34,918 nt of DNA. Origin: a bacterium (GTDB taxonomy: Bacteria; Vulcanimicrobiota; Xenobia; Xenobiales; JADMJV01). Of this stretch, positions 5,911 through 24,733 are shown piece after piece. Position numbers and translations under genes: made by a program. A model generated the notes under the pieces. That model had not been told where the DNA came from. It saw only the letters and a list, made by a program, of their open reading frames with translations, and made no database searches. The DNA is taken from assembly GCA_030149525.1 (NCBI GenBank), contig JASBRJ010000337.1, positions 1 to 34,918 of the forward strand, read 5' to 3'. Every line of letters begins with the position of its first letter. Position 1 is the stretch's first letter.

Positions 5911-7475
5911 TGCAACCAGCTCAGATAGTTGGTGTAACGCTGATGGAGATACTTCAAAAGGAGAATGTCGTCGTAGAGATGTCCGTACATCTTTCGTCCT
6001 TTGGCCATGTCGGCGAGTTGTCGCTCGATCTTCACCAAACGCTTCTTGACCTCAGGGGCCTTCAGGCCTTCAAGGCCCTGCTTGAACTCGGCATCAAGTT
6101 CTGCCACAGGGTCTGAGCGATCAAGATCCAGTCGATCGTACTCGGCATTAGCCATATCGAATAGCTTTCGAATCCAGCTCACTCGGTCCACTCGGAGGCT
6201 CCCGTTGCCGGGGGCTTCGAAGAAGGAGGCGTTGTGGTCCGGCACCAGCTTGTCGTGAAGAACGAAGGGGAGAATCTGGCGCACATCCTCCAGGCTGACG
6301 ATGCCGTCGCCTCGGAAATAGGCCATAGCTTTCACGAACACCAGAATGCTGAGGATAGCCCGGACCGAGAGTCCGTTCTGAGTCTGAAATCCTAGATCTT
6401 TGAGCTGATCCTTTCCCGATTGGTCGCCTAAAACATGGGGATCGATGCCGCTGATTTTCAGACAGTCTTTGGTCTTGTATTCGACCTGTTCACCACCCGG
6501 CTCGAAGAACTCGAATTGACTGGCGAAGAACTCCAGGCGGCGGCGGAGATTCGAAGGAAGTTCTACCGCCATGATCTCCTGATAAAGCCGCTCGGTCTGG
6601 GCGGGTGTGAAGATCAATTTGGGGGGAACGACCTCTTCCGGACGGATCCCCTCCTCAATCCGTGTGAGCATCTCGCCGAAGAATCGGGTATTAAAGTGAA
6701 GGGCTCGCACCACCACATCGATACGGTCGCGCAGAGCCTCAATCACCTGATAGGTGCCTCCCCCGCCGTCGTCGTTGGCGGTGAGAAACCAGGCCGCCGG
6801 CGGGCACTCGTACACATGATCGAGAACCTCGGCGTAGTTGTCGGCAAGCACCGTTAGAAGCGCCGACTGGGTTCGGGTGGGGATACGATTATACTCATCG
6901 ATAATCTTCACCCTCATCCCCAGCCAGCTTCGCCAGGACACCCGAATATCGTCCATACTCTGGGCGTTCACAAGATCGGCGGGCAGCGGATTCCCCAGAA
7001 GATCGGAAATCGTCATCTGAGGTTGGCCGTGCTGAATCCCCCGGCGGACTTCTTTCAGCGAATAACCGGCTAGAATCCCCATCAGAATCGCTGTGGCCGT
7101 CTTCCCCCGACCGGGTCCGCCCACCAGAAGACAACGCCTGCGAACAGCAAAGTTCAGAAGCGGCAGAAGCACGAAACTCGAGTAACTCTGGGAGCTTGGC
7201 AAGGTCACCTGAGTCTTAGAATCACCAAAGCTAAAAACCTGAGGCGGCTTATCGTTGTACTCGATGTCGTAGTGAGGACTAATCACCGCATGATTTACGA
7301 TCCAGAAGTAGGCCTGGCGCAACTTCTCATCCAGCGGCTCCTCACCGCCCTTCGACTCTTCCACAACCGGTGCAGGACCACGGAAAAGATCGGCCACATC
7401 GAAAGACTTCTTGGCTTGACGGGTTCCCGGACGGGTGGGGGCTTCGGCCACGTGTTGGTAGAGATTGTAGCTCAT
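5895..7475 (-). CDS. MoxR-type AAA+ ATPase
   Basis: A 526-residue AAA+ ATPase of the MoxR group and the first gene of the five-gene operon. The Walker A loop is GGPGRGKT (residues 119-126), the Walker B segment VKIIDEYNRIP (189-199), sensor 1 LTAND (231-235), and the arginine finger lies in ALRDRID (about 247-253). The stretch between Walker A and B, with IQHGQPQMTISDLLGNPLPADLV, is typical of MoxR proteins encoded beside HExxH-vWA partners. About 200 C-terminal residues follow the ATPase core and contain helical, charged segments. MoxR ATPases remodel partner complexes through a vWA protein. The ATG at 7475 is preceded by a C- and A-rich leader with no visible Shine-Dalgarno, which is unusual beside the strong sites elsewhere in the window. 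Confidence 0.95.
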   Translation of the reverse strand: MSYNLYQHVAEAPTRPGTRQAKKSFDVADLFRGPAPVVEESKGGEEPLDEKLRQAYFWIVNHAVISPHYDIEYNDKPPQVFSFGDSKTQVTLPSSQSYSSFVLLPLLNFAVRRRCLLVGGPGRGKTATAILMGILAGYSLKEVRRGIQHGQPQMTISDLLGNPLPADLVNAQSMDDIRVSWRSWLGMRVKIIDEYNRIPTRTQSALLTVLADNYAEVLDHVYECPPAAWFLTANDDGGGGTYQVIEALRDRIDVVVRALHFNTRFFGEMLTRIEEGIRPEEVVPPKLIFTPAQTERLYQEIMAVELPSNLRRRLEFFASQFEFFEPGGEQVEYKTKDCLKISGIDPHVLGDQSGKDQLKDLGFQTQNGLSVRAILSILVFVKAMAYFRGDGIVSLEDVRQILPFVLHDKLVPDHNASFFEAPGNGSLRVDRVSWIRKLFDMANAEYDRLDLDRSDPVAELDAEFKQGLEGLKAPEVKKRLVKIERQLADMAKGRKMYGHLYDDILLLKYLHQRYTNYLSWLQWQTH

Positions 7476-7677: not shown

Positions 7678-8850
7678 GTGGAAATGATGAGGACAAGACT
7701 TTTGAGAATTGCTCTAGAGTTCGTTCCTGACGAGCTATATCGGGCAGCGATAAGCGACGCTTCTGAGAGGTTTGAGACCTGGCTAACCTATTATCGAAGC
7801 GAATCTATGAATGGCGCTTGCAGGAAACTGGTCAAGAGCTTTTTGGATGATCCGGAGAGTCGACTCGGGCAATGTTTAGATTCCTGGCTTTCACAGCCTG
7901 TCACTCCGTCCGGAAGTGATGCACAAGCGGACTTTGAGGTCATTGCAAAAGAGCTAAACGAATCGTTACTGATGCCGGTCTGGGTCATCCCCTACAACCC
8001 CGACATACCTGAGCAACTCGCCAGGGGAGCAGTCGCGTTCAGCAAGGTTTTCTCCCTGTACCGGGGCCTGAAAAAATTGGCTCGCGCGTTACAGATACAG
8101 GGAAGGCGTGCCGAGAGTGTGTCCGCATGGTGCACTTTACTAAGATTCACTGCCTGTTTCCAGGACGATATCTTATACGATGAGGTTCACCTACATTTAC
8201 ACCTGACAATGGTCAGTGCCTCAATTTCCGAGCTTTTAGACAGCGGACTTTTCACTTCGCCCAGACCGGACGAAGACTGGCTGAAATTAGCGGAATCCCT
8301 GAACTCATTTTCCCTGTCTGATGAGTTGTTGAAAAGAGCCTATTTCGACCAGACTCTGTTTGGGCAGTCACTGCTAAAGCCGCTATTGAACGGAACTCTC
8401 GCGAAATACTTGCCCCCCTTTCGATACCTGCTTCTTCGAGAGCTTCGAATTTTCTCAAGACAAATGTACTCTCGATATAGAGAGAGCTACCGGCTTCGAA
8501 CCGACCTGGAGAGCCAACCGGCAAACAGCTCAGTGTGGAAGTTCATCAAAGGTCAGGACCCCCTGTTTCTTCCTGTAAGCAAGCTCCCTGTGTACAAGCA
8601 AGACCTTGACTGTATTTCTGCCACCGTCTATTTAGCGAAGCTACTCTGCGTCATGGCCCACGAAATGACGAGCGATGTCCCCAAGGCGGAAGAGCTTAAA
8701 AGAATCGGTATGCTGGCAATGTACCCAACTTCTCTGGCGGTGACCTCATCCGGAGTGGAGATCAAGGTAACTTTGCCCGATCTGCCAAGCACCTTCTCTC
8801 CTCAGTTCGGGAACGAATTCGAAACGGTCACAGAGGGCCCAACGAGCTAG
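7678..8850 (+). CDS. unknown helical protein, 390 residues
   Basis: I do not recognise a named family. The protein is soluble, mostly alpha-helical and Leu-rich, with no signal peptide or convincing membrane helix. A central stretch, YRGLKKLARALQIQGRRAES (about residues 123-142), looks like a TPR-like helical hairpin as seen in uncharacterised proteins of planctomycete-like bacteria. The GTG at 7678 is chosen because GGGAG lies 7 nt upstream; ATG 7684 or 7687 are alternatives. It is divergent from the MoxR operon across about 200 bp and 75 bp upstream of the zinc-binding gene. By eye its base composition is more AT-rich than the surrounding operons, which could mean separate acquisition. Confidence 0.8.
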   Translation: MEMMRTRLLRIALEFVPDELYRAAISDASERFETWLTYYRSESMNGACRKLVKSFLDDPESRLGQCLDSWLSQPVTPSGSDAQADFEVIAKELNESLLMPVWVIPYNPDIPEQLARGAVAFSKVFSLYRGLKKLARALQIQGRRAESVSAWCTLLRFTACFQDDILYDEVHLHLHLTMVSASISELLDSGLFTSPRPDEDWLKLAESLNSFSLSDELLKRAYFDQTLFGQSLLKPLLNGTLAKYLPPFRYLLLRELRIFSRQMYSRYRESYRLRTDLESQPANSSVWKFIKGQDPLFLPVSKLPVYKQDLDCISATVYLAKLLCVMAHEMTSDVPKAEELKRIGMLAMYPTSLAVTSSGVEIKVTLPDLPSTFSPQFGNEFETVTEGPTS

Positions 8851-15993: not shown

Positions 15994-17025
15994 CTACCCC
16001 AAGACCTTGAGACAGCCGGAGGTGGGCGAGTCCGCCTCTTCGATGTAGCCAATCACAGCAAACTCAGGAGGGACTTCCACCTCCTGAGGCCAGGCCATCA
16101 AGAGTCCCCCCGAGGTCTGCGCATCGGTGAGAAGTCCACGATGAGCCTCTTCTACCGACTCCTCCCAAACCACCGCGTCCATGCCTTCAAGCCAGTCTCG
16201 ATTGGCCACCGAACCACCCGGAAAAACCCAGTCCAGGGCGAATTCCCAGGCCGCCTCATAAAGGGGCACTTTGTGCGCTTCAAAGACAAAGTTGAGGCCG
16301 CTGCCGCGGATCATCTCCCAGGCGTGACCTAAGAGCCCGTAGCCGGTAATGTCGGTGGCGGATCGAACTCCCGCCTTCGTCATGGCTTCACAGGCCCGGG
16401 CGTTGAGGGTCTTCATCCCATCGAAGGCTTGGGAAATCTCCCTTTCGGTGAGCTTTCCTCGCTTAACGGCGGTGGTGAGAACACCGGTCCCGATCGGCTT
16501 GGAAAGCACCAGCCGTTGACCCGGTCGAGCCCCATCTTTGGTGGTCATGTGCTCCGGTTTCACAAAACCTGTCACGGAGAGGCCGAACTTGGGCTCGGCA
16601 TCCTCCACCGTGTGGCCGCCGCAGGGCACGGCTCCCGACTCTGCCACCTTATCGGCTCCCCCTTGCAGAATGGCCGAGAGAATCTCCGTTCCCGCCTTGG
16701 AGAGGGGAAAGCAACAGATATTCATGGCCGTGTAAGGGGTCCCGCCCATGGCATAGACATCGGAAAGTGAGTTGGCAGCAGCGATCTGACCAAAAAGATA
16801 TGGGTCGTCGCATAAGGGCGTGAAAAAGTCCACCGTCTGAATCATGTAGTCTCCGTTGGGAGCCTTTACGACAACGGCGTCGTCGGGGACGGCGCTTCCC
16901 GCCACGACCCTGGGGTCGAGAGCCGGCGCTTTTTCTTTAAGTGGACGCAGAACCTGCTCCAGATCCTTGGGTCGGATCTTAGAGGCTCAACCGGCGCACT
17001 TCACCATCTCGGTCAGTTTTGTCAT
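15994..17025 (-). CDS. selD: selenophosphate synthetase SelD, itself a selenoprotein
   Basis: It makes selenophosphate from selenide and ATP for SelA. Reading from ATG 17025, the N terminus is MTKLTEMVKCAG, then an in-frame TGA at codon 13 (16989-16987), then ASKIRPKDLEQVL. The TGA sits exactly at the catalytic Cys/Sec of the family (Cys17 in E. coli), with the essential Lys three residues later, so it should be read as selenocysteine. The product is 343 residues. Automatic calling would start at 16905 and lose the catalytic N terminus. Other family parts include VDFFTPLCDDPYLFG, with metal-binding Asp residues, and ANSLSDVYAMGG. A SECIS-like hairpin follows the TGA. It is the first gene of selD-selA-selB. 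Confidence 0.96.
16957..16984 (-). promoter_or_regulatory. SECIS-like hairpin in selD
   Basis: On the minus strand, starting 3 nt after the UGA, CTCT pairs with GGAG (one wobble), an A is bulged, and AGATCC (16979-16974) pairs perfectly with GGATCT (16966-16961) around a 7-nt apical loop, GACCCAA. Bacterial SECIS elements lie inside the coding region just after the UGA, with an apical loop starting with G and a bulge below it. The position (loop at +14 to +20) is compatible. The fold was made by eye, not computed. Confidence 0.6.
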
Positions 17026-22168: not shown

Positions 22169-24733
22169 CTAGGAAAAGACGGACGACAACATAGCCGCCG
22201 CTCCGGTGAGACGGTTCTGCCAAACTTCACGAGGCACATCTGCCTTTAAGAAGGTGATGAGAAAAGCTTCCCCATCGATAGGTATGAGACTGTAGCTTCG
22301 CTCTGCCGAGGAGAGCAGATACTGATGGACCGGCTGAATGCCCAGGAACTCCATCTCCTGTTCTATATCGCCGATGGCCTGGGTCATTATCACACCCACA
22401 ACCTCCGGGTTAACATCCTCGTTGAGTTGCATATCGATGGGCAGACCGTCGCTCGAGGTCACTACGTTTCCGATGACCCCCTCTACGCCGGCCAGTTCTT
22501 CCAGAACCTTCTTCATGATCGCTTCCCGCAGAACGGTTTCGCCCGGTAAGTCGGAGCCGTCCTGAGAGCTTTCGTCCACCGAACTTGGCAACATGGCCAG
22601 AAGACTCAATTCTTTAGGAAGTTTGAAGTAATTGAAAGAGTGACTGCCCGCCTCGATGACGATGGACTCCAGTTCACCTAACTCTGCTTCCTCGAGCCCT
22701 CTTCCCATAACCTCCATTAAGACAGGTCCGATGGAAGCGGCTCTTTGGAAAGCCGGGTTCTCCTGATAACGCCGGTTGAGTTCCAGGCCTTCGGCAGAGA
22801 CGGCTGAGACGAGAGCCGACGGGTCGGTCTCGGCAGCCACCATGGAGATCTGGTCTTCCAGGTCGACCCCGTCCAATTCGTCGGTCATTTCCACGTAGTC
22901 GCGCACCTGGCTCACCGACAGAGCGAGAAGCTGGGTCACCGAGGGCTTATCTACCGGACTGACCACTTCAGGGAGCATCTCGGTGATGCCGGTGTCTTGA
23001 AGGGCTACCTCCGGCTCCGCCTCCGTGGCGGCAGCAGGCTCGGTCACGGGATCAATATCCAGGTCTATACTCGGCTCCGGCCCCAGGTCGAGATCCATAT
23101 CCATGTCGAGAGCCTCGTCCAGGGCCGGAGTCGACTCTACCGGATCAAGATCCGGCCCGAAATCAGGCGGAGGAATGTCATCAATTTGCGGCTCTTCGAC
23201 TTCGGCAGGCACCGGCTCGGCAGAGACTTCGGGAACCTGGGGCACCGACTCGCCGGCCGTATCGATATCCAGGTCGCCAAGATCCAGATCGAGGTCAAGA
23301 TCAAGGTCAAGGTCAAGATCTAGGTCGAGATCGGATGTGGCACTGCCGGTTGTGGCCGAGCCCAAATCAAGATCATCGAGATTGGTATCGAAATCATCCA
23401 CTCCGGGGATCGAGCCCACATCGAGGTCGCTACCTCCGTCGCCGGAAAGTCCAAGGCCGTCACCACCGGCGGGCGAGGAATCGAGATCAAGATCGAGATC
23501 GAAATTGAGCAGACTGTCGATGTCTGTGCTTTCTTTCTTCTCCGGTTCGGGACCGAGTAGGTGTTCACCGATATGAGTGCCGATATCGATTCGAGTCATG
23601 CCATCGAAACGGCTCAAGATTTCTTGCACACTTCGGTAAGAGGTCTCACGTAGCACATCGGAGATCTTCTCGCCCAAAGTGCCCAGGTCGGTAATCAGGT
23701 CGAGGGGGATGTCTCTTTCGCTGCGACTGAGAACTTGTCGAGCCTCCGTGCACTCCGTAACAGGGGTGACCAGAAAGGCCGCGTCGGGCTCAAAGTAGTT
23801 TGCCCGCGAGAGAAAGCGAAACGCCTTATCAGGTGTCACGGCAGATTCCTGAACCTCAAACATGAACACGGAGCCTTCGTAAACCGCGAAGAGGTCGACC
23901 GTCTCGTAGTCATTCTCCAGGGCCCATCTGAGACTCTTTTCAGAAACCCCATGATGAGACAAGGCCTCGGCAAGCGAGAGAGCTAACCACAGGTTGCGAT
24001 GAGCCAACCTTTTTCCAAGGGCCGTCGGACGCAACAGTTGGTCGATACGCTCCTCGGAGATCAGTCGGTTGGAGAAGGGGCTCCGGAATCCGCGTTCCGC
24101 CGCCTCTTGAAGGGCCTCGTAGGAAGGAAATCTTGCTAACTCACGGTTCGAGTCCCGATCAAAGACTTCGAATTCCCGCTCGATCAGGCGCTTCTCCACC
24201 AGATCGTCCACAAAACTTTCGTAGTCGCCCTCTTTTTCTTCAGCGAACTGGCTGAGCATGATCCCCGGGCAGCGGGCTACCTTTTGCAGCAGAGCCCGGC
24301 TCTCCTCAGCTTCTAAGACCTTGGCAGCCTCCAATTGCCCCTTGGCTACCGGAAACGGGTCGGACTCCTCAGCCACCAGCCGAAATCTTCGACTGAGCAC
24401 CGAGAGAGGCGTCCAGCGCCAGGCATCGAGAACGGAAGCGATGGAGGAACGAAACTCCTCAAACGGCTCGATGGGAGGTGCGTCGGAATAGATGACCCCG
24501 GCCTCAACGGCATCACGCTCTTCGGAGATCCAGTAGAAAAGGATGTTCTCATCCTTACCCAGGAAGAGCTCTCCGCCGGTCTCGTTCCCTTTGCCTCGCA
24601 GCTCGAGAAGATCTCGAAAAACTCCGGGGACGTCGCTGACCAAGGGCTGGTACAGCCCTTTCAACCTCGTCCAAAGGTCTTTCTCTTGCTCCTCCCCTAC
24701 TTTGACTCTCAGTACTTCACGAAGAACCTGCAT
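22169..24733 (-). CDS. nuclease-fold-like/DL-repeat/double-roadblock protein
   Basis: An 854-residue multidomain cytoplasmic protein. Residues 1-400 are globular; near 271-296 they contain ETVDLFAVYEGSVFMFEVQE, which resembles the core strands of PD-(D/E)xK nuclease folds but has Gln where Lys is expected, so nuclease activity is doubtful. Residues 420-560 are a low-complexity acidic linker with a long Asp-Leu repeat (about 467-490). A roadblock-like domain lies at about 596-714 and a second at about 733-854 (VLEELAGVEGVIGNVVTSSDGLPI). It starts 6 bp after the stop of the giant TPR gene. It is likely a scaffold that pairs with the small roadblock protein downstream; function is inferred. Confidence 0.85.
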   Translation of the reverse strand: MQVLREVLRVKVGEEQEKDLWTRLKGLYQPLVSDVPGVFRDLLELRGKGNETGGELFLGKDENILFYWISEERDAVEAGVIYSDAPPIEPFEEFRSSIASVLDAWRWTPLSVLSRRFRLVAEESDPFPVAKGQLEAAKVLEAEESRALLQKVARCPGIMLSQFAEEKEGDYESFVDDLVEKRLIEREFEVFDRDSNRELARFPSYEALQEAAERGFRSPFSNRLISEERIDQLLRPTALGKRLAHRNLWLALSLAEALSHHGVSEKSLRWALENDYETVDLFAVYEGSVFMFEVQESAVTPDKAFRFLSRANYFEPDAAFLVTPVTECTEARQVLSRSERDIPLDLITDLGTLGEKISDVLRETSYRSVQEILSRFDGMTRIDIGTHIGEHLLGPEPEKKESTDIDSLLNFDLDLDLDSSPAGGDGLGLSGDGGSDLDVGSIPGVDDFDTNLDDLDLGSATTGSATSDLDLDLDLDLDLDLDLDLGDLDIDTAGESVPQVPEVSAEPVPAEVEEPQIDDIPPPDFGPDLDPVESTPALDEALDMDMDLDLGPEPSIDLDIDPVTEPAAATEAEPEVALQDTGITEMLPEVVSPVDKPSVTQLLALSVSQVRDYVEMTDELDGVDLEDQISMVAAETDPSALVSAVSAEGLELNRRYQENPAFQRAASIGPVLMEVMGRGLEEAELGELESIVIEAGSHSFNYFKLPKELSLLAMLPSSVDESSQDGSDLPGETVLREAIMKKVLEELAGVEGVIGNVVTSSDGLPIDMQLNEDVNPEVVGVIMTQAIGDIEQEMEFLGIQPVHQYLLSSAERSYSLIPIDGEAFLITFLKADVPREVWQNRLTGAAAMLSSVFS
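23281..23334. repeat. hexanucleotide repeat encoding Asp-Leu
   Basis: Nine consecutive degenerate 6-bp units of the form GRTCNA (for example GATCAA, GGTCAA, GATCTA). In the minus-strand reading frame they encode alternating Asp-Leu. Some units are identical, so the tract could change copy number by slippage in multiples of two codons without a frameshift. A shorter related run lies near 23468-23500 in the same gene. Confidence 0.8.

Follow-up and report, generated by a model that had tools for sequence, protein, structure and literature searches.

In this work, we conclude that the selD gene in a 34,918-nucleotide window (the whole stretch of DNA that was analysed) from a bacterium of the phylum Eremiobacterota almost certainly encodes a selenoprotein, a selenophosphate synthetase in which selenocysteine (Sec) is read at UGA codon 13, and that it does so from a selD-selA-selB operon. 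The conclusion is drawn from sequence, namely the gene itself, the position and conservation of its UGA, the Sec machinery and tRNA-Sec of the genome, and a SECIS candidate (Table 1).

When positions 17025 to 15994 of the minus strand are translated with TGA as Sec, the product begins MTKLTEMVKCAGUASKIRPKDLEQVLRPLKEK... and contains a single internal UGA, at codon 13. The TIGR00476 selD profile matches residues 3–315 with 348.7 bits (cut-off 125), so homology runs on across the UGA, and both AIR-synthase domains (PF00586 and PF02769) are found in the 343-residue protein. U13 and K16 correspond to the catalytic Cys/Sec and the Lys of the SelD N-terminal loop, and both fall in invariant columns. 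Ordinary open reading frame calling gives instead a protein of 303 residues that starts at the GTG at 16905 and loses residues 1–40, Sec13 and Lys16 among them. The ATG at 17025 is preceded by an in-frame stop 33 codons upstream, and the interval contains no other ATG, GTG or TTG; a strong Shine-Dalgarno sequence is not apparent upstream of this ATG. An earlier note had placed an in-frame UGA at the catalytic position, with the essential Lys three residues later, and had held that the automatic start would remove the catalytic N terminus. All of this is borne out: in the alignment to Cys- and Sec-containing SelDs that the note had called for, the UGA (16989–16987, minus strand) falls exactly on the catalytic column, and Lys16 is invariant.

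Table 1. Coordinates in the window of the selD operon, its recoding elements and the candidate hairpins
Feature	Position	Strand	Basis
selD, selenophosphate synthetase, 343 aa, Sec at residue 13	15994..17025	-	TIGR00476; PF00586 and PF02769
UGA codon 13, putatively read as selenocysteine (catalytic)	16987..16989	-	opposite a UGA or Cys codon in all SelDs read
Lys16 codon, invariant catalytic lysine	16978..16980	-	invariant column in SelD alignment A1
Default ORF, GTG start, without residues 1–40	15994..16905	-	ordinary ORF calling
Hairpin A, directly after the UGA	16950..16988	-	stable; loop 13 nt from the UGA
Hairpin B, best-supported SECIS candidate	16942..16961	-	published bSECIS model and Sec/Cys comparison
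selA, L-seryl-tRNA(Sec) selenium transferase, 447 aa	14619..15962	-	TIGR00474, 488.9 bits; PF03841
selB, Sec-specific elongation factor, 636 aa	12712..14622	-	TIGR00475, 346.1 bits; PF09107, 1.6e-15

The codon at residue 13 was compared in two sets of relatives. SelD was found in most of the 148 genomes of Eremiobacterota searched, many times with one internal TGA, and the 70 SelDs in which the codon was read have UGA (44) or Cys (26) and nothing else. An alignment-based scan of genome contigs collected a further set of 80 SelDs from named genomes of many phyla, with UGA in 63 and Cys in 17. The earlier note had also raised the case of relatives carrying a plain frameshift or nonsense change rather than a conserved UGA; among the relatives read, this column holds only UGA or Cys, with no frameshift and no other nonsense codon. 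In 38 genomes searched for both SelD and tRNA-Sec, a tRNA-Sec over cut-off accompanied every UGA-containing SelD (15/15), and several genomes with a non-UGA SelD (G005, G016, G020, G025, G041) had none over cut-off. Within the phylum, residue 15 varies together with residue 13, being Ser in 36 of the 44 Sec-SelDs and Ala in 21 of the 26 Cys-SelDs, an association that may reflect clade. One genus contains both forms, with a Cys-SelD in L017 and Sec-SelDs in four species (L012, L013, L015 and L016). The Cys gene of L017 still has the SECIS hairpin, and its sequence suggests that Sec gave way to Cys only recently and that the SECIS is a relict.

The genes for Sec synthesis and decoding are complete in this genome, with tRNA-Sec, SelA, SelB and SelD all present. 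selA and selB lie directly downstream of selD in the same direction, the last 4 nt of selA being shared with selB, and the C-terminal domain of SelB is the winged-helix SelB-wing_3 (PF09107). The order selD-selA-selB is also found in the same-family relatives L013, L015 and L017. The search for selC elsewhere in the genome, likewise proposed in the earlier note, recovered an intact tRNA-Sec, scoring 73 bits and carrying the anticodon UCA, on another contig of the 398-contig assembly than selD. The genome has one SelB match over cut-off and one SelD match; an Rfam scan of the window gave no match.

After the intact tRNA-Sec (contig C119, 9251–9344) comes a gene for a phage-type integrase (C119, 9469–10608; PF00589), the two making up locus L156 (9251–10608). 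A second tRNA-Sec-like call (contig C223, at 1600; 53 bits) lies, within locus L157 (C223, 3–1691), beside a ShosA/ShosT-like pair (DprA-like and phosphoribosyltransferase-like). This second call was rejected as a functional gene: only its 3' half, from the anticodon stem to CCA, is in common with the intact tRNA-Sec, with a differing variable arm, and, built with its 5' half, the acceptor stem is mismatched and the D-arm poor. selC serves here as the attachment site of an integrase element, which explains the false call, and we infer that the ends of contigs C119 and C223 flank one element. Genome G047 (L158, contig C38) provides another instance in the phylum of an insertion at selC: the 3' half of selC, from the anticodon stem to CCA, is repeated there exactly and in direct orientation over 65 bp, at 6928–6992 and 8037–8101, 1,109 bases apart.

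A search of the genome for the selenoprotein families tried revealed at least three other genes with UGA, together with SelU. Two are SelW-like (Rdx) genes with a CxxU motif and UGA as U (L205, C154:10454–10654; L206, C206:6426–6647). The third is an AhpC/TSA-family, peroxiredoxin-like gene with a UxxC motif and UGA (L211; C62:3022, minus strand), about 600 bases from selU (348-bit match, C62:3647, plus strand). These three genes rule out SelD as the sole selenoprotein of this genome. No UGA-containing formate dehydrogenase was found in the genome, the matches to that family being without UGA, and the AhpD/CMD family gave none either.

Could the UGA be a plain nonsense mutation or an assembly error in a Cys-SelD, or could the real protein be the short form from 16905? 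Ordinary open reading frame calling does yield the 303-residue form, but it would be without Sec13 and the invariant Lys16, and the frame and homology extend upstream to residue 3. UGA moreover stands at exactly this codon in the majority of relatives and recurs across many other phyla, its sole substitute being Cys, and the genome has the complete Sec machinery, with selA and selB in the same operon. We therefore consider this explanation extremely improbable, and propose instead the following course of events for a Sec-containing SelD. The ribosome would start at the ATG at 17025 and reach the UGA at codon 13, SelB with Sec-tRNA(Sec) would bind a SECIS hairpin shortly after it in the gene, most likely that at 16961–16942, and Sec would be inserted in place of termination. 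By analogy with the known pathway, SelD would then use Sec13 and Lys16 to form selenophosphate, which SelA would use for new Sec and SelU for selenouridine in tRNA. Synthesis of Sec-SelD would need pre-existing SelD activity, because this genome has only one SelD gene and no Cys-SelD backup. Such self-dependence, which the earlier note had claimed for this gene and which agrees with the single SelD found, is a known property of Sec-SelD.

Our comparative analysis points to hairpin B as the most likely functional SECIS. It has the form UGGAGCAG-GUU-CUGC(G)UCCA, with 8 bp, one bulged G and a GUU loop at 16953–16951 that lies 33 nt after the UGA, and its free energy is -8.5 kcal/mol. These values fit the published bSECIS model, which has a loop of 3–9 nt, a stem of 4–16 bp, a G in the first two loop positions, a distance of 16–37 nt between UGA and loop and an energy of at most -7.5 kcal/mol (PMC13188914). 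Composition-shuffled sequences meet the same model in 6.6% of trials, so the argument leans mainly on the comparative evidence. When scored by its four upper pairs and the loop G, hairpin B is present in 32 of the 42 distinct Sec-SelDs of the phylum against 2 of the 25 Cys-SelDs (Fisher 3e-8, kinship ignored), and in 32 of the 63 Sec-SelDs of the named genomes against none of the 17 Cys-SelDs (Fisher 5e-5, kinship ignored). In its closing pair, the wobble position of the Gln24 codon is matched with the first position of the Leu26 codon, and the combinations CAG...CUG and CAA...UUG are all synonymous. Of 51 Sec genes, 47 keep this pairing, where codon usage, taken gene by gene, would predict 31.3; the value of 47 was not attained in any of 20,000 simulations, and Q-x-L motifs elsewhere in the same Sec genes match in 54%. 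Not all Sec genes use hairpin B: roughly half of those from named genomes, and a few in the phylum, use a different one, for example one 17 nt after the UGA in L164, L196 and L197. A GUU loop is likewise found in the peroxiredoxin-like gene of this genome, on a perfect 7-bp hairpin and 21 nt after the UGA of that gene. Free energies relative to synonymous codon randomisations differed only weakly between Sec and Cys genes (mean z -0.86 versus -0.54, p 0.03), so this test was not relied on.

Two other folds compete with hairpin B for the same region, and because the family to which the window belongs keeps all three paired, it does not by itself set hairpin B apart from the others. The SECIS-like hairpin that the earlier note had described directly after the UGA does exist as a stable structure, hairpin A. 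No fold of the region has a lower free energy than hairpin A (-17.8 kcal/mol for 46 nt, with 1 of 200 dinucleotide shuffles as good), this hairpin is fully paired in 5/5 same-family Sec genes, and alignment A2 has paired changes at columns 12/28 and 13/27. Its loop, however, lies 13 nt after the UGA, outside the 16–37 nt of the bSECIS model (PMC13188914), and its pairing is no higher in Sec than in Cys genes (0.70 versus 0.73 in the phylum, 0.50 versus 0.68 in the named genomes). The same-family Cys relative L017 moreover keeps hairpin A, and hairpin B too. Hairpin A is thus probably not the functional SECIS, and we consider it unlikely that it serves as such, possibly jointly with a downstream hairpin. 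A third fold, hairpin C, AGGAUCUG-GAG-CAGGUUCU (16967–16949), with its loop 27 nt after the UGA, also satisfies the bSECIS model and is locally slightly more stable than hairpin B (-9.8 versus -8.5), but its covariation is not above that of shuffles (0.73 versus 0.72 in the phylum, 0.66 versus 0.66 in the named genomes), and we regard it as a very unlikely SECIS.

Returning to hairpin B, a more tentative idea, which we put forward as possible rather than probable, is that the Sec-SelDs of many phyla share one homologous, SelD-specific SECIS, with its loop 33 nt after the UGA over the A-Q-V-L-R codons. This would let a relict hairpin, as in L017, mark recent Sec-to-Cys switches, and the neighbouring competing hairpins could tune the self-dependent expression of SelD.

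What does this gene add to the known Sec-containing SelDs? Our search of the literature gave no mention of selenocysteine for Eremiobacterota. The SelD of the window belongs to an ordinary, well-known kind of gene, here found in a poorly studied phylum. Its best solved relative by sequence is the SelD of PDB entries 2yye and 2zod (3e-65), which we take to be that of Aquifex aeolicus, a distant relative of another phylum; residue 13 of the window SelD aligns with the catalytic residue of this chain (native 13 if nine N-terminal residues are a tag). It is like Sec-SelD/SPS2 (TIGR00476) in its family, in the catalytic Sec with Lys three residues on, in UGA recoding and in the alternation with Cys (PMC4561486, PMC5029168), and we see no functional difference, only the host lineage, here Eremiobacterota. 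Sec-containing SelD was known from 383 organisms by 2016 (PMC5029168) and only one prokaryotic selenoprotein family is more widespread (PMC13188914). In the selDABC cluster of Eubacterium acidaminophilum, so named in a title cited in PMC12013277, selD, selA and selB are likewise in one operon, whereas selC lies here outside the cluster, on another contig. Our results correct the annotation of a key enzyme by 40 N-terminal residues that include the active site, and relatives whose SelD has the UGA are likely to suffer the same annotation error. They also document selenocysteine use with a complete toolkit in Eremiobacterota, and provide a textbook case in which an enzyme of the Sec pathway itself needs Sec.

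Elsewhere in the window, an 18-nt tandem repeat (23278–23332) lies inside an 854-residue open reading frame (22169–24733, minus strand) and codes for an Asp-Leu repeat.
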